A stretch of DNA of 64,000 nucleotides from Methanococcoides methylutens MM1 (GCF_000970325.1 NZ_CP009518.1:248001-312000), one strand, 5' to 3'. Numbered from the stretch's first letter, positions 41,870 through 52,374 are shown. Numbers and translations: made by a program. The notes: a model not told the origin generated them from the sequence alone.

Positions 41870-43150
41870 ATGTCCCATATCCAAATCGATCGATCATTAC
41901 AGTATATGGATGGTACGCAGAGGGTTTTTGATGAGGAAACAACCCTTGGTAACACAAAACCACATCTGGAAGAGATCGGTGTCACAAGGATCGCCAGTAT
42001 CACCGACCTGGACCGTATAGGGATCCCGGTATTCTCTGCCATAAGGCCGACAGCTGCCGAAGGTGCTATTTCTATCTATTCAGGTAAAGGATCTACTGAA
42101 AGCCAGGCAAGGATCTCTTCCATGATGGAGAGCTTTGAAAGATGCCTTGCAGAGCGTATTGGTGTTAATGCTGATATCGTTGAGGATGTGGCCGCAGAAG
42201 AGTTCATCGAATCTGTTGAAAATGCCTCAGATGGTCATGAACTTGTAGATCCCAACAAACTCCTTCTGGCTGAACCTTTACCACCTGAGAGCCTGGTCGA
42301 GTGGACCCAGGGGTGGGACCTTTTGCTCGAGAAGGAGGTCTATGTGCCTTCGAACGCGGTATATCACCCTTATGATTCTCCCGGAATGTCTGCAAGACTT
42401 TTCAGGAGCAATACCAACGGCCTTGCATCAGGGAATGTTATAGAGGAAGCAATATTGCACGGTTTGCTCGAAGTAATTGAGCGTGATGCACTGAGCATTG
42501 CAGAGTTCAACAGGAACCCCGGTAAGCAGATCATCCTCTCCGAAAATGACGGCGTAAATTATGAGCTAATGCAGAAATTTGAATCCAATGGTGTACAGCT
42601 CAAACTTTGGCTGCTTCCTCATGATACCGGCATAACATCTGTTGTGGCCGCAACGGATGATCTTGATCTTAAAGATGCGGCTTTGCTTGTGATGGGTGCA
42701 GGTTCCCACCTGAATCCTGAGATCGCAATAAGAAGGGCTATCACCGAAGCAGCCCAGTCGAGGGTTGTGCAGATACATGGTGCCCGTGAGGATACTGACA
42801 GGGAGAGCTTCGTCAGGCAGATCGGTTATGAACGCATGAAGAGGATGAACCGTTTCTGGTATGAAGATTCTGAGAGCGTTACTACCGGGGAGTTGAATGA
42901 TATCTCAAGTGCAACTCCTGCAGAGAACATCGATGTTGTTCTGGATGAACTGCGCAAGATCACGGACAGTGCTATTGTGGTTGACCTTTCCCGTAAGAAC
43001 GTAGGCGTTCCGGTGGTAAGGGTCATAATCCCGGGATTCGAGCAGTATACCCTCGACCGTGAACGTGTAGGCCATCGTGTGAGAAAAGGACGTAAACCAT
43101 CCCCATCTTCAGAGAAACCCTGGAAGAGAAGGTTCGGCAAACGAAAGTGA
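41870..43150 (+). CDS. ycaO: YcaO-family protein for methyl-CoM reductase thioglycine
   Basis: 426 residues of the YcaO superfamily, ATP-using enzymes that activate a peptide-backbone amide. The ATP/Mg blocks are SSMMESFERCLAERIG near residue 84 and HGLLEVIERDALSIAEFN near residue 197. The C-terminus is basic with prolines (KPSPSSEKPWKRR), as in the methanogen group. In methanogens this protein, with TfuA, is needed to convert an McrA glycine to thioglycine (established for Methanosarcina). The tfuA gene starts four bases downstream, which supports the assignment. The sulfur donor is not known from this sequence. Confidence 0.92.
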   Translation: MSHIQIDRSLQYMDGTQRVFDEETTLGNTKPHLEEIGVTRIASITDLDRIGIPVFSAIRPTAAEGAISIYSGKGSTESQARISSMMESFERCLAERIGVNADIVEDVAAEEFIESVENASDGHELVDPNKLLLAEPLPPESLVEWTQGWDLLLEKEVYVPSNAVYHPYDSPGMSARLFRSNTNGLASGNVIEEAILHGLLEVIERDALSIAEFNRNPGKQIILSENDGVNYELMQKFESNGVQLKLWLLPHDTGITSVVAATDDLDLKDAALLVMGAGSHLNPEIAIRRAITEAAQSRVVQIHGAREDTDRESFVRQIGYERMKRMNRFWYEDSESVTTGELNDISSATPAENIDVVLDELRKITDSAIVVDLSRKNVGVPVVRVIIPGFEQYTLDRERVGHRVRKGRKPSPSSEKPWKRRFGKRK

Positions 43151-43154
43151 TCCT

Positions 43155-43805
43155 ATGAGAGCGGTTGTCTTCGCAGGTACCAGCATCAGCCACGAGGATG
43201 CAAAAGAGATCCTCGATACAACTTACCTGCCACCTGTGGCAAGGGGTGATGTTGATAAGGTCGCCGGTCAGGGCTATGATGTGATCGGTATCATCGATGG
43301 TGTTTTCTTTGACAGGGCTGCAGTGGCTCACAAGGAGATCATCCGTGCAATTAAAAAAGGCATCAAGGTCGTTGGAGGGTGCAGCATGGGTGCATTGCGC
43401 GCGTCAGAACTTGATGTTCATGGAATGGTCGGTGTGGGTACAGTCTATGGCTGGTACCGGGACGGTGTAATTGAATCCGATGACGAGGTCGCAGTGACAA
43501 CCAACCCCGAGACCTTTGAACAGGTCTCACTGCCGCTTGTTAATATCAGGGAGACCTTCAGGAAGGCAGTTGAGCAGGGTCTGATCGATAATGAGACCTG
43601 CAAAGGGCTGATCGCGATAACAAAGAGGATCCATTACCCTCAGAGAAGTTATCTTGGTATTATAAAAAAGGCAGTTGAAGAAGGACTGCTGGAAGATGCA
43701 GAACCCCTGCTGGGCTACTGCAGGAACAATGCATCGGATGTAAAAAGGGAAGATGCAATTCTTGTTCTGAAGAAAGTCAAAGAGATCCTGGACGCAGGGG
43801 AATGA
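43155..43805 (+). CDS. tfuA: TfuA-related thioamidation protein
   Basis: 216 residues of the TfuA-like family. Recognisable blocks are VVFAGTSISHEDAKEIL at the N-terminus, YLPPVARGDVDKV near 27-39, IIDGVFFDRAAVAHKEI near 53, and GCSMGALRASELD near 75-87. It is the partner of YcaO in McrA glycine thioamidation and may deliver sulfur. It sits in a two-gene operon with ycaO, with four bases between them. Confidence 0.92.
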   Translation: MRAVVFAGTSISHEDAKEILDTTYLPPVARGDVDKVAGQGYDVIGIIDGVFFDRAAVAHKEIIRAIKKGIKVVGGCSMGALRASELDVHGMVGVGTVYGWYRDGVIESDDEVAVTTNPETFEQVSLPLVNIRETFRKAVEQGLIDNETCKGLIAITKRIHYPQRSYLGIIKKAVEEGLLEDAEPLLGYCRNNASDVKREDAILVLKKVKEILDAGE

Positions 43806-46528: not shown

Positions 46529-46702
46529 AATGAAGCCCCTCGTAAAAGTAAAGAGATTTGGTGTTCGATCACTTTATATTAATAATATATATCTCATGAA
46601 CCCTTATAGTATTTTTGAAGTCTTTATTATGTTGCCATCATTTCGGTATTTAATATGATTATTCGCTATTTGATGGCTCAAAAAGGGTGGGAGGTCCTAT
46701 AT
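46529..46702. promoter_or_regulatory. Divergent promoter region MgtC-like/MBL-rhodanese
   Basis: 174 bases between two divergent genes. TTTATATTAATAATATATAT at 46572-46591 is a TATA-rich stretch that could serve either direction. GGGAGGT at 46689-46695 is the ribosome site of the forward gene. Confidence 0.45.
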
Positions 46703-48130
46703 TTGATCATCAGGCAGATATTTACAGACGGAATAGCTCATAGTTCATACCTTCTTGGAGGGAACAATACATGTGCAGTGGTCGATCCGGATCGCGACAT
46801 CGATGTCTACATGGATGTTGCATCTGAGATGGGCTGGAAGATCACCCATGTCCTGGAAACCCATCTACATGCGGATTTCATCTCCGGCCACATGGAACTA
46901 ATGGAAAGGACCGGTGCTAAGATAGTGGTCCCGGCTTCCGCGAATTGTATTTTCGATTCCATGAAGGTATCCAAAGGAGATTCATTTGAGATGGAGGACA
47001 TGGTCATAGAGGTTCTGGAAACCCCGGGACACACGCCGGAGCATGTTTCCTATGTTGTCACTGACAGGTCCCGTGGTGAGGTTCCTGTTTGTGTATTCTG
47101 TGGTGATACCCTTTTTGTAGGCGATGTTGGAAGGCCTGACCTGTTCCCGGGAAGAGCAGAGGAGCTGGCATCAAAACTCCATGACAGCCTTCACGAAAAA
47201 CTGCTGAAACTGCCTGATCATTGTGAAGTATATCCTGCACATGGTGCAGGTTCTCTGTGTGGAAGGTCCATGGCTGCAAAACGCAGTACCACCATCGGTT
47301 ATGAGCGTCTTTACAATTATGCCCTGAACATCAGTGACCGGGAAGATTTCATCCATTCGCTTACTGAGAACATGCCTAAGGCTCCCGACCATTTCAGCCG
47401 TTGCAGCGAGGTCAACAAAAGGGGGCCGGAACTGCTTGATGATCTTCCTTCCCTGAAAGCTATCCCCCCTGCAGATTTCAGCAAAATGGTCGAAGATCCC
47501 GACACCGTTGTCCTTGATATCCGCTGCTATGAGGCATTCGGTGGACGTCATATCCCTGGCGCATACAGCATCGACCTGAAGAGTAATTTTGCCACATTCA
47601 CAGGTTGGTTGCTTCCTCCGGACAGGAACATCCTGCTGGTTTCCGACTCTCCTGAACATGCATCCGAAGCAGCAGTATGGCTACACAGGGTAGATCTTGA
47701 CAGGATCATCGGATTCCTTGAAGGGGGTATGCATGCATGGGCCATGGCAGGTCTTCCCACAGAACATCTCTGTCAGGTGTCAAGTCCTGAGCTTGACAAC
47801 ATGGTCAGGGATGAAGAAGAGTTTATTCTTGTGGACGTCAGGGCATCTTCCGAGTTCAGATCAGGGCATATCGACAGGGCAGTTAACATTCCTGTAGAAG
47901 AGATCAGACATTCTTACAAGGAGCTTGATCCCGGAGCAAAGACTCTGGTGATCTGTGGAAGCGGACATCGCTCCAGCATGGCTGCAAGCATTCTGCAACA
48001 GAATAATTTTAGTGATGTCCACAACGTTTCAGGTGGGATGACAGGTTACAATGCTGCAGGCTTTGGTCCGGATTGTCCGTTGTGTGCACTTCCATGGGCG
48101 TCTTCCGGGAAAGGGAAGAAGGATGAATAA
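46703..48130 (+). CDS. Metallo-beta-lactamase/persulfide dioxygenase-like protein with two rhodanese domains
   Basis: 475 residues if begun at the TTG at 46703, seven bases after GGGAGGT; the ATG at 46655 has no ribosome site. Residues about 1-230 form a beta-lactamase fold with ETHLHADFISGH, TPGHTPEH, FCGDTLFVGDVGR and YPAHGAGSLCG, the pattern of ETHE1/CstB-type persulfide dioxygenases. Two rhodanese domains follow, at about 255-350 and 370-465. The first has SDSP where the catalytic cysteine should be and is probably inactive; the second keeps CGSGHRS. It probably handles sulfane sulfur, oxidising or transferring it. Confidence 0.85.
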   Translation: MIIRQIFTDGIAHSSYLLGGNNTCAVVDPDRDIDVYMDVASEMGWKITHVLETHLHADFISGHMELMERTGAKIVVPASANCIFDSMKVSKGDSFEMEDMVIEVLETPGHTPEHVSYVVTDRSRGEVPVCVFCGDTLFVGDVGRPDLFPGRAEELASKLHDSLHEKLLKLPDHCEVYPAHGAGSLCGRSMAAKRSTTIGYERLYNYALNISDREDFIHSLTENMPKAPDHFSRCSEVNKRGPELLDDLPSLKAIPPADFSKMVEDPDTVVLDIRCYEAFGGRHIPGAYSIDLKSNFATFTGWLLPPDRNILLVSDSPEHASEAAVWLHRVDLDRIIGFLEGGMHAWAMAGLPTEHLCQVSSPELDNMVRDEEEFILVDVRASSEFRSGHIDRAVNIPVEEIRHSYKELDPGAKTLVICGSGHRSSMAASILQQNNFSDVHNVSGGMTGYNAAGFGPDCPLCALPWASSGKGKKDE

Positions 48131-48147: not shown

Positions 48148-48528
48148 TCAAAGGCTATGCTGTGTCAGCCCGAGTCCCTGGTCCTTGTCCACGTTAATGC
48201 TCTTAGGTCGGTACAACTTCCCTGCTTTCCAGGAATCAATTGCCTCCTGTACTGTAGCATCGGCACCTATGAAGATGTCAATATCATTTTTGTTCAGCAG
48301 GTCCACGATCTTCTGGCCTACTCCGGAACACAGGACAACGTCCACTCCGGCCTTTACCAGCAGTTCATGGGGTAATCCTTTTCCACCCACATGGACACTT
48401 GTGTTCTCCATGACCTCAACTTCTTCTGTTTCGCTGTCATAGATCGTGTATGTGGCAGCCTTTCCAAAATGAAGTTCGACCTCATCTTCCAATCCACCTT
48501 TTTCCGTGCTGGGTATAGCAATTTTCAT
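48148..48528 (-). CDS. NifX/NafY-like iron-molybdenum cofactor-binding domain protein (copy 1)
   Basis: 126 residues of the dinitrogenase iron-molybdenum cofactor family, with IAIPSTEKGGLEDEVELHFGKA at the start and GVDVVLCSGVGQKIVDLL in the middle. Stand-alone members bind metal clusters; some, called orange protein, work with MinD-like ATPases. It is the last gene of the reverse-strand cluster that starts at 52053 and is a paralogue of the first gene there. It has a single cysteine (VLCSG) and no His-rich tail. Confidence 0.85.
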   Translation of the reverse strand: MKIAIPSTEKGGLEDEVELHFGKAATYTIYDSETEEVEVMENTSVHVGGKGLPHELLVKAGVDVVLCSGVGQKIVDLLNKNDIDIFIGADATVQEAIDSWKAGKLYRPKSINVDKDQGLGLTQHSL

Positions 48529-48675
48529 ATTCTCACCTTTTCCGGCGAAGAATATGTTCTCATTATTTGATATACTTCTGCATGGAAAGAAGTCAAAAAA
48601 ATCCCGAAAAAACTGCAGTGGTCTGAAGGTATTAGATTGTACAACTGACGACCTGGGATGATCTGTCAGTTCTAT
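48529..48675 (-). other. Short intergenic region inside the NifX/MinD cluster
   Basis: 147 bases between the MBL gene and the last NifX-like gene. I see no hairpin with a T-run on the reverse strand, so transcription could continue through it. A GAAAAGGTGAG stretch at its left end is the ribosome site of the NifX-like gene. Confidence 0.4.
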
Positions 48676-49332
48676 TCAGATCTCAAAGCTGTACCCTGCC
48701 TCAATAGGTACAAAAGTATCCGGGAACATGCTTTTGATGGTATCGATGTTCGATGTACAGTGTCCGGCACCTATAAACTCCAGTCCTTCCAGAAGTTCAT
48801 ACTCCCTGCTATCATGCAGACCTCCAATGATGCCGCAGACCTCTCCTTCTGAAGCTGCCGCTCCGATTATGGCTTCCAGTCCCGGGTGTGCACATCCTGT
48901 GATGACGAAAATACCTTTTGCTGTTTCCAGCATCAGGGACTGCTCTTTAGGATTATTCCCGAGTTCACCTGTAGAAAAGACGTTGTTGCATATCCTGCAT
49001 CTGTCGGTGACCTCATGCAAAGTGGAATGGGCAGATATCTCTTTTTTAAGTTTCTCTGAAAAGGACGCAGGGACAAAGACCTCAAGGTTCCTGCTGGTGT
49101 TCAATATCACCGGCAGACCACCTATGTGGTCCCAGTGCTGGTGGGAAAGCACGAGAATATCGATATTTTCGACAGGGATATTCAATTCCGACAGATTGTG
49201 CCTTAAAGCACAGCCATCCCACCCCGTATCAAAAAGTATCTTCCTATCCTCGGTCTCAATATAGCAGGAAAATCCCCACCCTTTCCTGAAAGGTGGTTTT
49301 GCTTCATTATCATAGACGATGGTGACCTTCAT
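48676..49332 (-). CDS. Metallo-beta-lactamase-fold hydrolase, MptA/RFAP-synthase-like group
   Basis: 218 residues from the ATG at 49332, which overlaps the stop of the DUF1847 gene (TGATG). Metal-binding blocks are LSHQHWDHIGG near residues 64-74 (HxHxDH), TGCAHPG near 152 and a late GAGHCTS near 194. It belongs to the branch often annotated 7,8-dihydropterin-6-methyl-beta-ribofuranosylaminobenzene-phosphate synthase-like; the true reaction is unknown. The overlap shows that it belongs to the NifX/MinD cluster. Confidence 0.82.
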   Translation of the reverse strand: MKVTIVYDNEAKPPFRKGWGFSCYIETEDRKILFDTGWDGCALRHNLSELNIPVENIDILVLSHQHWDHIGGLPVILNTSRNLEVFVPASFSEKLKKEISAHSTLHEVTDRCRICNNVFSTGELGNNPKEQSLMLETAKGIFVITGCAHPGLEAIIGAAASEGEVCGIIGGLHDSREYELLEGLEFIGAGHCTSNIDTIKSMFPDTFVPIEAGYSFEI

Positions 49333-49904
49333 CACTTGTTCCCCATTCCGAAACGATTCCTCTGGTAATATCCGGAATAAAGTGCCCCTGCAGGATTGTG
49401 TGCAAGGACCCTGTCCTTTACAATGAAAGTCGTGACAGGTGCTTCGGAATACTTGTTGAACATTATGTCGTGGCCCATGCAGAGTCCCACTATGATGTTA
49501 AGGTCTGTTCCCACCCTGTTGAGCATCGTTGCCTGGGCAATGGGGTTGCAGGTTGTTTCCCTTCCCTCTCTGATCTTGTCCAGTCCGTACTTTTCCTTAT
49601 CCACGCCACAGATCTTGCAGCATACGGACTCTACTATGAAGTCTTTCTCAAGTATCTGGCAGAGAGTCCTGGCCTCATCTCCCAGACCCAGGCAGAAAGC
49701 GACCCCGAGTTTGCGGTATCCCATTTCCTTCGCAAAAAGGATGAGCTCTTCAAGCCTTGTTTTCTGCATGTAGAAGTTAGCCTCTATCTTTGAGGCTGCT
49801 TTCATCATATCAAGATCTTCTGCAACATATTCAGGCTGCACTTCCCTTGGAGTACAATCCTTTCCCTCCCTGCATCTTCTTGTATCACAGGATGCGCATT
49901 TCAT
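49332..49904 (-). CDS. DUF1847 cysteine-rich protein
   Basis: 190 residues of the DUF1847 family, which has many cysteines and is thought to bind metal. Blocks are CASCDTRRCREGKDC at the N-terminus, LGVAFCLGLGDEA near 65, VCCKICGVDK near 94 and NIIVGLCMGHDIMF near 135. It lies 39 bases after the second MinD-like ATPase, and its stop overlaps the MBL start. It could be a redox or metallocluster carrier working with the ATPases (inference). Confidence 0.85.
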   Translation of the reverse strand: MKCASCDTRRCREGKDCTPREVQPEYVAEDLDMMKAASKIEANFYMQKTRLEELILFAKEMGYRKLGVAFCLGLGDEARTLCQILEKDFIVESVCCKICGVDKEKYGLDKIREGRETTCNPIAQATMLNRVGTDLNIIVGLCMGHDIMFNKYSEAPVTTFIVKDRVLAHNPAGALYSGYYQRNRFGMGNK

Positions 49905-49943
49905 CGTCTGTCCACCTTTTATAGTATTAATATGCCTTTTTTA

Positions 49944-50813
49944 TTATGAGGTTGCATCGAGTTCTGCTTTCACAGTTCTCCAGATGCTTTTCAGGTTCTC
50001 TGAGAACTCATTGTCCGCATATTCAATGACGGTCTTTTTCCCTATCATCGCCCTGTTAGGTATTGTGTCATACGGAAGCTTTCCTGCAACCACAATGCCA
50101 TTTTCCTCGCATGATATCTCGATCTGCTTTGTGTTTTCTTCATTTATGTTATATTTATTGATGCAGACGATGGCAGGAATTCCGAAATGGTCAGTGACCT
50201 TTATTATTCTTTCCAGATCGTGTATGCCTGATACACTTGGTTCAGTGACAATAAGTGCAAGGTCAGCACCGGTAATGGTAGCTATAACAGGACAGCCTGT
50301 TCCCGGAGGACCGTCGTAGATAACAAGGTCGGAACCATTTTCCCCTGCGAGCGACATTGCATGTTCTTTTACTGAAGTAACAAGTTTACCGCTTGCTTCT
50401 TGTCCGATAAACAGTTCTGCATGTACCATCGGGCCATACCTTGTATTTGAACTGAAGACCGTTCCTGAGGGGTTGTCTACCATTGTAATGGCATTCTCAG
50501 GGCATACATATTCGCAGACCCCGCAACCTTCGCATTTGCAGCTGTTTATGGAATGGTCCGGGAAGATCGCATTAAAATTGCAATTCTCGATACACAGGTT
50601 GCAGCCGGAACATTTCTCATCATCTATATTTGCGACGTCCATTCCGTGGAAATCGAAGGTTTCAATGACCTTTGGTTCAAGTAGAAGATGCATGTTAGGC
50701 GCATCCACATCACAGTCTGCTATAATACTGTTCTCTGCAAGTGATGCAATAGCTGCAGTGATGGTTGTCTTGCCGGTCCCGCCTTTACCGCTTATTATGA
50801 CAAGCTGTTTCAT
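49944..50813 (-). CDS. MinD/Mrp-like P-loop ATPase with ferredoxin insert (copy 1)
   Basis: 289 residues. Deviant Walker A GKGGTGKTT is at residues 8-16. Two 4Fe-4S motifs are inserted near 68-110: CSGCNLCIENC and CEGCGVCEYVC. A Walker B-like LVIYDGPPGTGCPV follows near 160-175. Such proteins load or transfer Fe-S or other metal clusters using ATP. It overlaps the second MinD-like gene by four bases, so the pair probably forms a heteromer, as reported for MrpORP-type complexes. Confidence 0.88.
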   Translation of the reverse strand: MKQLVIISGKGGTGKTTITAAIASLAENSIIADCDVDAPNMHLLLEPKVIETFDFHGMDVANIDDEKCSGCNLCIENCNFNAIFPDHSINSCKCEGCGVCEYVCPENAITMVDNPSGTVFSSNTRYGPMVHAELFIGQEASGKLVTSVKEHAMSLAGENGSDLVIYDGPPGTGCPVIATITGADLALIVTEPSVSGIHDLERIIKVTDHFGIPAIVCINKYNINEENTKQIEISCEENGIVVAGKLPYDTIPNRAMIGKKTVIEYADNEFSENLKSIWRTVKAELDATS

Positions 50814-51667
50814 GCTTCTTCCCTCTTGCCGTATCTGTCTTTTATAGAATTATGGAGCTGCATGAACTTCTCTTTCCACTCTTCCATCTCCTCAACGAAT
50901 GGAATTCCCTCTGAGTAAAGTCGTGCTATCCTTGTATCCTGAGGTATTTTCATAAGGACTTCGATGCCTTCGTCAGCACAGTATTTTTCCACACTGTCAT
51001 CACCGCTTCCACTTCGGTTGATAAGTATTCCGTGTGGTATCTTGAGGATTCTGGCTACTTCTACCGCCAGTTTCAGGTCATGTAATCCAAAGGGAGTGGG
51101 CTCAGTAACAAGGATACAGTAATCGACATCTTCGAGGGTGGTCAGTACAGGGCATGCGGTTCCGGGCGGTGCATCAATAATAGTTGTCCTGGTCGGATCG
51201 ATGTATTTTTTCACCTCTCCGATCACAGGTGATGCCATGGTCTGGCCGATATCCAGCAGTCCTTCGTATAGTTCCGGACCGTTTTGGTCTTTGGTTGTTG
51301 ATTTCCTTATTATGCCTGTAACGATCTCGCATTCTTGAATTGCCCCTTCGGGGCATACCATCATGCATCCGCCACAACTGTGGCATAGTGCAGGAAATGT
51401 CATGATCTTGTTCGGAAGAGTTGCAATCGCATTGAAACGGCAGAATTCAGAACATTTTTTACAATATGTGCAGTTCTCTTCCAGGATTTCAGGGATGATC
51501 GATGTTACCTCTGTGATCGGCTCCATTTCCCTTTTGAGGAACAGGTTGCAGTTAGGTTCTTCAACATCACAGTCCATGAGTTGTGCATTCTGAAGTGAAA
51601 GGGCAAGGTTCACCGCTACAGTGGTCTTGCCTGTTCCACCTTTTCCGCTTGCTATTGCGATCTTCAT
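50810..51667 (-). CDS. MinD/Mrp-like P-loop ATPase with ferredoxin insert (copy 2)
   Basis: 285 residues and a paralogue of the gene at 49944. It has Walker A GKGGTGKTT at residues 7-15, CTYCKKCSEFC and CHSCGGCMMVC cluster motifs near 69-108, and IIDAPPGTACPV near 165. It comes after the His-tailed NifX-like gene (8 bases between) and is coupled to the next ATPase by an ATGA overlap. Its probable role is ATP-dependent metal-cluster handling in the same complex. Confidence 0.88.
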   Translation of the reverse strand: MKIAIASGKGGTGKTTVAVNLALSLQNAQLMDCDVEEPNCNLFLKREMEPITEVTSIIPEILEENCTYCKKCSEFCRFNAIATLPNKIMTFPALCHSCGGCMMVCPEGAIQECEIVTGIIRKSTTKDQNGPELYEGLLDIGQTMASPVIGEVKKYIDPTRTTIIDAPPGTACPVLTTLEDVDYCILVTEPTPFGLHDLKLAVEVARILKIPHGILINRSGSGDDSVEKYCADEGIEVLMKIPQDTRIARLYSEGIPFVEEMEEWKEKFMQLHNSIKDRYGKREEA

Positions 51668-51675
51668 GATATCAT

Positions 51676-52053
51676 TCAGTGCTGGTGATTATGGTCGTGG
51701 TCGTGTCCCTGGCAGACATTCTCACTGTTCGGACTTGCAAGGTTTCCTTCTTTCCATTCTGAAATAGCTGCTTCTACTGTTCCCTGAGCTCCAACGAAAA
51801 CCTCTATCCCGAATTCTGAGAACATGTTGACAGCTTTTGTTCCAAGTCCCCCGCAGAGCATTATATCGACGCCTGCATTTGATAGCAGTTCAGGTGGCAA
51901 TCCCACGCCGCCGTTGTGCTGGCTTGTGTTCTCTACGATCTGGACATCATCTGTTTCGGTGTCAAGTACTGTATATACCGGGACCATTCCAAAGTGCTGT
52001 CCGACAAGGTCTTCTAATCCACCACTTTTTGCAGAAGGTATGCATACTTTCAT
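51676..52053 (-). CDS. NifX/NafY-like domain protein with His-rich tail (copy 2)
   Basis: 125 residues, the first gene of the reverse cluster. The cofactor-binding fold is shown by VCIPSAKSGGLEDLVGQHFG and GVDIMLCGGLGTKAVNMF. The C-terminus is CQGHDHDHNHQH, which copy 1 lacks and which is likely to bind metal (nickel, zinc or copper). AGAGGTT before the ATG is the ribosome site. Together with the two MinD-like ATPases it forms the core of an orange-protein-like system. Confidence 0.86.
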   Translation of the reverse strand: MKVCIPSAKSGGLEDLVGQHFGMVPVYTVLDTETDDVQIVENTSQHNGGVGLPPELLSNAGVDIMLCGGLGTKAVNMFSEFGIEVFVGAQGTVEAAISEWKEGNLASPNSENVCQGHDHDHNHQH

Positions 52054-52374
52054 CTTTTTAACCTCTTATAATTTTTAAATTTGGTTTATTATGCTCATAT
52101 ATGAGGAAGTATATAAAGATGATGGGTTAGCTTGATATATTTAATCTCTTTTGTGCATTTTAATCTTCAAATTTCTAAACCTTTGTATAAGTCCCTGTGG
52201 GTTGTTCCTTACTCAGAATAAGTTGTTCTGGAATGCGATGAAGGTAACAGGTTATAATTAATGCCAATAGAGTATATGCTCGGGAAAACTCGCTTAAAGG
52301 CAGAACAGAATTTAAAAATGAATTTAATTTGAATTTTAAGTAATTAAAAAAAAGAAAGGAAAAAAGAATTGGAC
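52054..52374. other. Intergenic region before the NifX/MinD cluster
   Basis: 321 AT-rich bases with no gene. A perfect 12-bp palindrome, CTCATATATGAG, lies at 52094-52105 about 40 bases before the NifX-like start and could be a TATA element or operator. Near 52320-52370 the reverse strand is rich in T, as expected for transcript ends after mtbA. Confidence 0.5.

Follow-up and report, generated by a model that had tools for sequence, protein, structure and literature searches.

Does a six-gene cluster of Methanococcoides methylutens MM1, in which NifX-fold proteins accompany paired MinD-like ATPases, encode an archaeal relative of the orange protein (ORP) system of Desulfovibrio, and what might it handle? 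Methanogens have a large demand for iron-sulfur (Fe-S) clusters, their storage and movement of iron and sulfide are largely uncharted, and what ORP-type complexes do is itself unsettled. The cluster lies at positions 48148-52053 on the minus strand of the window, a stretch of 64,000 nucleotides that represents 248001-312000 of a single-contig, 2.39 Mb genome. Judged from its sequence, the operon is genuine and conserved, is of the ORP kind and has new partners; also new is a promoter element linking it to a second operon 0.86 Mb away. We consider it likely, on balance, that the operon acts with this second one as an archaeal orange-protein-like system for the assembly, storage and export of iron sulfide.

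Six open reading frames were verified in the cluster, and their Pfam domains bore out the combination of NifX, MinD, DUF1847 and metallo-beta-lactamase (MBL) proteins described in an earlier, sequence-only reading. In 5'-3' order they encode NifXa (51676-52053), MinDa (50810-51667), MinDb (49944-50813), DUF1847 (49332-49904), MBL (48676-49335) and NifXb (48148-48528). The first two genes are separated by an 8-nt gap, MinDa and MinDb overlap by 4 nt, a 39-nt gap lies between MinDb and DUF1847, DUF1847 and MBL overlap by 4 nt (1 nt if MBL starts at its second codon, an ATG), and 147 nt separate MBL from NifXb. The two short overlaps and the 8-nt gap support the single operon that had been suggested, and the spacing of all six genes fits a single transcript, possibly with a separate start ahead of NifXb.

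Upstream of NifXa, at 52106-52143 on the minus strand, we found a predicted promoter element, TAAATATAT-N17-TTTATATACTTC, the second part of which resembles a TATA box. A perfect 12-nt dyad, CTCATATATGAG (52094-52105, minus strand), directly downstream of the TATA box is a candidate operator, and related promoters carry a CTC-N4-TGAG-like sequence at this position. The element occupies the equivalent place in other Methanococcoides genomes, and comparison of upstream regions gave the common form TAAATATAT-N17-TTTAWATAYTTC followed by CTC-N4-TGAG. Genome-wide, the slightly looser pattern TAAATATAT-N17-TTTAWATA had exactly two matches, one before the window operon and one before an operon with an IssA-like gene, while a reversed control of the pattern had zero matches in the 2.39 Mb. 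When up to two mismatches were allowed, 18 matches were found in 11 genomes of the genus, 16 of them upstream of NifX genes. Since the pattern had been written after both sites were seen, a position weight matrix was built from six window-type promoters only. Over 2,365,200 positions, drawn from NifX neighbourhoods, all matches of at least 15 bits were promoters of NifX-led operons; these included sites in genus g5 and in genus g12 (in the latter, flanked by DUF134 and the IssA-like gene), and the site before the IssA-like operon of this genome scored 16.5 bits. The IssA-type sites of certain other species fell short of 15 bits. A family-wide search with three mismatches was noisy, the reversed control being about equal in many genomes, and was informative for two exact matches in genus g12. 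We infer that the shared element would allow co-expression of the two operons.

The second operon (genome positions 1154582-1158418; L161:5583-9419) encodes an IssA-like NifX protein with a Gly/Arg-rich tail, an FrhB-sulfite reductase and a fusion of a CDF domain to NifX, and is flanked by two divergent DUF169 genes. In other genera the same three genes were found, in varied combinations, inside the NifX-MinD-MinD-DUF1847 operon (L040, L042-L045, L047, L061), so that one system appears to have been divided in Methanococcoides into two halves that carry one promoter type. The reductase, an F420-type sulfite/nitrite reductase, is probably a Group II Fsr, an assignment made from its FrhB plus sulfite-reductase architecture and its lineage rather than from active-site residues; this group has been described as functionally uncharacterised (PMC10229431). 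The operon pair and its recognisable promoter connect several orphan families (the ferredoxin-MinD pair, DUF1847, CDF-NifX, IssA-like NifX and Group II-type Fsr) and supply specific genes for experimental study. Some Methanococcoides hold an additional copy of an IssA/CDF/MinD/MinD operon (L070:2409-5825 and L069); in the L070 copy the CDF part has been lost, what remains of DUF1847 is a fragment separating MinDb from MBL, and no promoter element was seen upstream.

Gene neighbourhoods indicated which of the six genes form the core. The order NifX-MinDa-MinDb-DUF1847-MBL recurred in several genera of Methanosarcinaceae, far beyond chance, and the scattering without co-occurrence that would have spoken against a functional unit was not seen among relatives. 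Across 295 genomes of the phylum, the ferredoxin-MinD pair was present in 167, almost always as two genes per genome and usually next to NifX, and DUF1847 in 87; both occurred together in 80 of these 87 genomes (odds ratio 16, Fisher p 4e-17, uncorrected for shared ancestry). Within the flanks examined, 32 of 78 DUF1847 loci, from five families, contained the MinD pair. At 20 further MinD loci, picked mostly where adjacency to DUF1847 was not known, NifX was near in 16, DUF134 in 13 and CDF-NifX in 5. From these counts we take the core to be NifX-MinD-MinD; DUF1847, a COG0731-like radical SAM protein and MBL recur as accessories rather than fixed parts. The wider metal-cluster unit proposed by the sequence-only reading was thus conserved in methanogens, but DUF1847 and MBL are no fixed extension of it (87 versus 167 of the 295 genomes).

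Could the functional unit be NifX-MinD-MinD only, with DUF1847 and MBL as unrelated passengers on a Methanosarcinaceae transcript? Most DUF1847 loci of several families lack a neighbouring MinD, and many MinD pairs have neither MBL nor DUF1847 adjacent, as such passengers would predict. However, the adjacency recurs in rearranged orders, which argues for a functional link: in families f17 and f21 the order is MinDa, DUF364, MinDb, exporter, MBL, radical SAM, DUF1847; in Methanosarcina, DUF1847 is divergent from DUF134-Mrp; and a Paludibacter locus (L103) shows a further arrangement. We therefore regard passengers as rather unlikely. Nbp35/Mrp and DUF134 divergently adjoin the NifX operon in many genera; in this genome DUF134-Mrp are adjacent elsewhere, as a separate Nbp35 with a CxxC motif beside DUF134. 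A second DUF134 gene of this genome, with a Gly-rich tail, directly precedes a COG0731-like radical SAM gene (L206, near 1690441), and members of this radical SAM family neighbour MinD, MBL and DUF1847 in other lineages.

The core resembles a described complex. In Desulfovibrio vulgaris the ORP system comprises five proteins (Orp3, Orp4, Orp5, Orp8 and Orp9/MrpORP), of which Orp3 and Orp4 each carry two ferredoxin motifs, Orp8 has the NifX fold and Orp9/MrpORP is an Mrp-ORP fusion; Orp3, Orp4 and Orp8 co-purify and can receive their Fe-S clusters from MrpORP (Pardoux et al., PMC6345978). MinDa and MinDb are likewise paired MinD/ParA-type ATPases (Pfam CbiA/ParA and Fer4), each with an inserted ferredoxin domain holding two [4Fe-4S] motifs. 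The eight ferredoxin cysteines of MinDa (66, 69, 72, 76, 95, 98, 101 and 105), together with C172 and C230, were conserved in 100% of 35 orthologues and C33 in 97%, and those of MinDb (68, 71, 74, 78, 94, 97, 100 and 104), together with C34, C174 and C235, were invariant in 36 orthologues. Both share the deviant Walker A P-loop and the tie to Fe-S clusters with the Mrp/Nbp35/ApbC carriers, but differ from them in the ferredoxin insert, and neither has a CxxC outside that insert, such as the C-terminal motif of the Mrp/Nbp35 family. Against the cell-division MinD model the pair fell below the cut-off (minD_arch 59-62 bits versus 202).

NifXa corresponds to Orp8 as a stand-alone NifX-fold protein (PF02579 Nitro_FeMo-Co, E 7e-19). 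Its Cys/His-rich C-terminal tail, CQGHDHDHNHQH, retained in orthologues from several genera and families, is a difference from the ORP proteins and is the His-rich tail that had been noticed on one NifX copy; NifXb (E 2e-18; 49.6% identical to NifXa) has none. In our sample NifXb is, by its sequence, a duplicate of NifXa confined to the genus. Neither protein matched the nitrogenase NifX model TIGR02663, and the NifX tree had three groups: CDF-fused, IssA-like and NifXa/b. With IssA of Pyrococcus furiosus the system shares the NifX domain and, in the second operon, an IssA-like protein with a Gly/Arg-rich tail; in contrast, NifXa and NifXb belong to a separate clade, and the IssA-type Gly-rich cationic tail is found neither on NifXa, with its His-rich tail, nor on the tailless NifXb. 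Two NifX-domain proteins of the IssA clade in M. voltae increase on pyrite (PMC8516115, PMC9431491).

The likeness to orange-protein systems claimed by the sequence-only reading therefore stood for an Orp8-Orp3-Orp4-like core, whereas no MrpORP is present in the cluster. That reading had also equated MrpORP with a MinD pair plus an orange protein, which is wrong, since MrpORP is the separate Mrp-ORP fusion Orp9 and the MinD pair corresponds to Orp3/Orp4, which co-purify with Orp8 (PMC6345978). MrpORP as a component of the window was rejected (NF041136 scored 42-61 bits in window proteins, versus a cut-off of 450). A divergent Mrp/Nbp35 gene in relatives recalls orp9 and the divergent orp operons, and the predicted promoter is archaeal where ORP uses sigma-54. 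The ORP components named in PMC6345978 do not include DUF1847, MBL, CDF-NifX, IssA-like or FrhB-sulfite reductase partners such as those seen here. The resemblance appears stronger than the window alone could reveal, but we do not claim ORP membership, because the Mrp-ORP fusion is absent and Mo-Cu-S on NifXa is hypothetical. A true orange-protein system, with a cluster of Mo-Cu-S (or another Mo/W-S type) on NifXa that the MinD pair assembles or positions, seems improbable to us: the core has the same gene set as Orp8-Orp3-Orp4 (PMC6345978) and the D. gigas ORP structure 2wfb is among the matches of NifXa (E 9.5e-7), but NifXa is nearer to the uncharacterised 1t3v/1o13-type proteins, its best solved structures (E 2e-14), the MrpORP fusion is missing, and the neighbourhoods gave no sign of Mo/W handling, a CDF exporter and an IssA-like protein being linked instead.

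An iron-sulfur cargo is favoured because the ferredoxin cysteines are invariant in MinDa and MinDb, because the IssA-like protein has the same promoter element and IssA stores thioferrate (PMC5524996), because Nbp35 is linked, and because the magnetosome transporters MamM/MamB, followed by FieF, gave the highest scores for the CDF domain, all below cut-offs. The two operons thus probably belong to an uncharacterised system of Fe-S cluster handling. Building on the genes, domains, conserved order, split-operon relation and shared promoter element read directly from the DNA, we propose that NifXa, MinDa and MinDb would assemble into a complex like Orp8-Orp3-Orp4, and that its two ferredoxin-bearing ATPases may drive ATP-dependent, redox-coupled loading or release (in a direction that we infer) of a metal-sulfide unit on the NifX fold; iron-sulfur is the most likely unit. 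The tail of NifXa, rich in Cys and His, could serve as a metal-transfer arm, DUF1847 as a Cys-rich accessory that binds metal or persulfide, and MBL as an accessory hydrolase. In the second operon the IssA-like protein would provide storage and the CDF-NifX exporter overflow, alongside the FrhB-sulfite reductase, so that the two operons together may store, mobilise and export iron and sulfide. A more specific version, possible yet doubtful, is a dedicated archaeal iron-sulfide economy in which thioferrate is kept by the IssA-like protein and sulfide comes from the reductase, the MinD pair and DUF1847 convert this store, at the cost of ATP, to transferable Fe-S units on NifXa, and CDF-NifX senses the NifX cargo and exports surplus iron; if true, ORP-like proteins and Group II Fsr would have a function in common.

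Several points weigh against the favoured iron-sulfide system. The promoter element is a prediction, and the matrix was scanned over NifX neighbourhoods and not random genome, so that the whole-genome pattern search is the fairer test of its specificity. The roles of the MinD pair and of DUF1847 and MBL may be separate, given the many pairs without such neighbours. NifX-fold proteins carry varied cargoes: Mo-Cu-S (ORP), 3Fe-4S (MrpORP), thioferrate (IssA) and NifB-co (NifX). Our literature search found no biochemical or expression data on the operon. Finally, the HxxxD/HxxxD motifs of the CDF domain and the His tail of NifXa would also suit Zn, Ni or Co. Traffic or detoxification of such divalent metals, with NifXa as metallochaperone, the MinD pair acting like nickel-inserting ATPases and CDF-NifX exporting the excess, would agree with those motifs, with the conservation of the C/H-rich tail and with the heavy-metal-labelled neighbours (ArsP_2, DUF364) of some families. 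We nevertheless judge it to have a small chance of being correct, as the eight ferredoxin cysteines invariant in each MinD suggest a redox or Fe-S task, the IssA-like protein and the FrhB-sulfite reductase, both linked, are Fe/S proteins, and the CDF domain, best against MamM/MamB and FieF, scored far lower against DmeF or ZitB.

A role specific to methanogenesis was weighed as well. A network study predicted delivery of cofactor F430 or another part in maturing methyl-coenzyme M reductase (MCR) for an ANME-2a NifX-family protein, with CDF, 4Fe-4S and P-loop proteins listed as neighbours (PMC12622379), and in two genera the cluster has YcaO/TfuA genes nearby. That prediction was based largely on gene proximity, a non-methanogen, Desulfovibrio, has the same core set (Orp3, Orp4 and Orp8; PMC6345978), and Bacteroidota (L103) have DUF134-MBL-NifX near a DUF1847 fusion. 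Delivery of F430 or another step in MCR maturation is, in our estimation, very improbable as the function of the operon.

DUF1847 (PF08901, E 9.7e-53; 178 bits versus a gathering score of 25) has an N-terminal Cys4 motif (C3, C6, C11, C17), and its alpha/beta domain carries C71, C96, C119, C142, H145 and H169, all strongly conserved across 75 sequences. A first structure model, from 5 sequences, was poor (pLDDT 53); a second AF2 model, from 9 sequences, reached pLDDT 83 and predicted an alpha/beta, Rossmann-like core. Fold searches with this model were weak (best Foldseek E 5e-3, to Dph2 and transcarbamoylases; best Z 9.5, to periplasmic binding proteins), and no function was therefore assigned from structure. 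A DUF1847 profile had no significant match among PDB sequences, and our literature search found no mention of the family. MBL is a metallo-beta-lactamase-fold hydrolase (PF00753 Lactamase_B, E 3e-12) with its HxHxDH metal-binding motif intact (SHQHWDH in translation) and 7dck as best PDB chain (E 5e-38). At one Paludibacter locus (L103:5374-6441) DUF1847 forms a fusion with a histidine phosphatase-like domain, and DUF134, MBL and a NifX whose tail contains His are close by; in several Paludibacter genomes (L102, L104, L105) its neighbours are rhodanese, CoA-disulfide reductase-like and thioredoxin/thioredoxin reductase-like genes, which hints at persulfide chemistry.

Around the operon, mtbA and pyrrolysine genes lie upstream; a functional link to them was rejected, as the adjacency was seen only in Methanococcoides-type loci and in no other genera, and is probably incidental. 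At 46655-48130, convergent with the operon and kept beside it across Methanococcoides, is an MBL-rhodanese-rhodanese protein that resembles persulfide-handling enzymes. YcaO and TfuA genes, of the McrA thioamidation type by gene family, lie at 41870-43805 in a block order common to genus g8. Positions 1-24000 of the window have a G+C content of about 30-41%, compared to 44-52% in the remainder, which suggests an island or mobile region.

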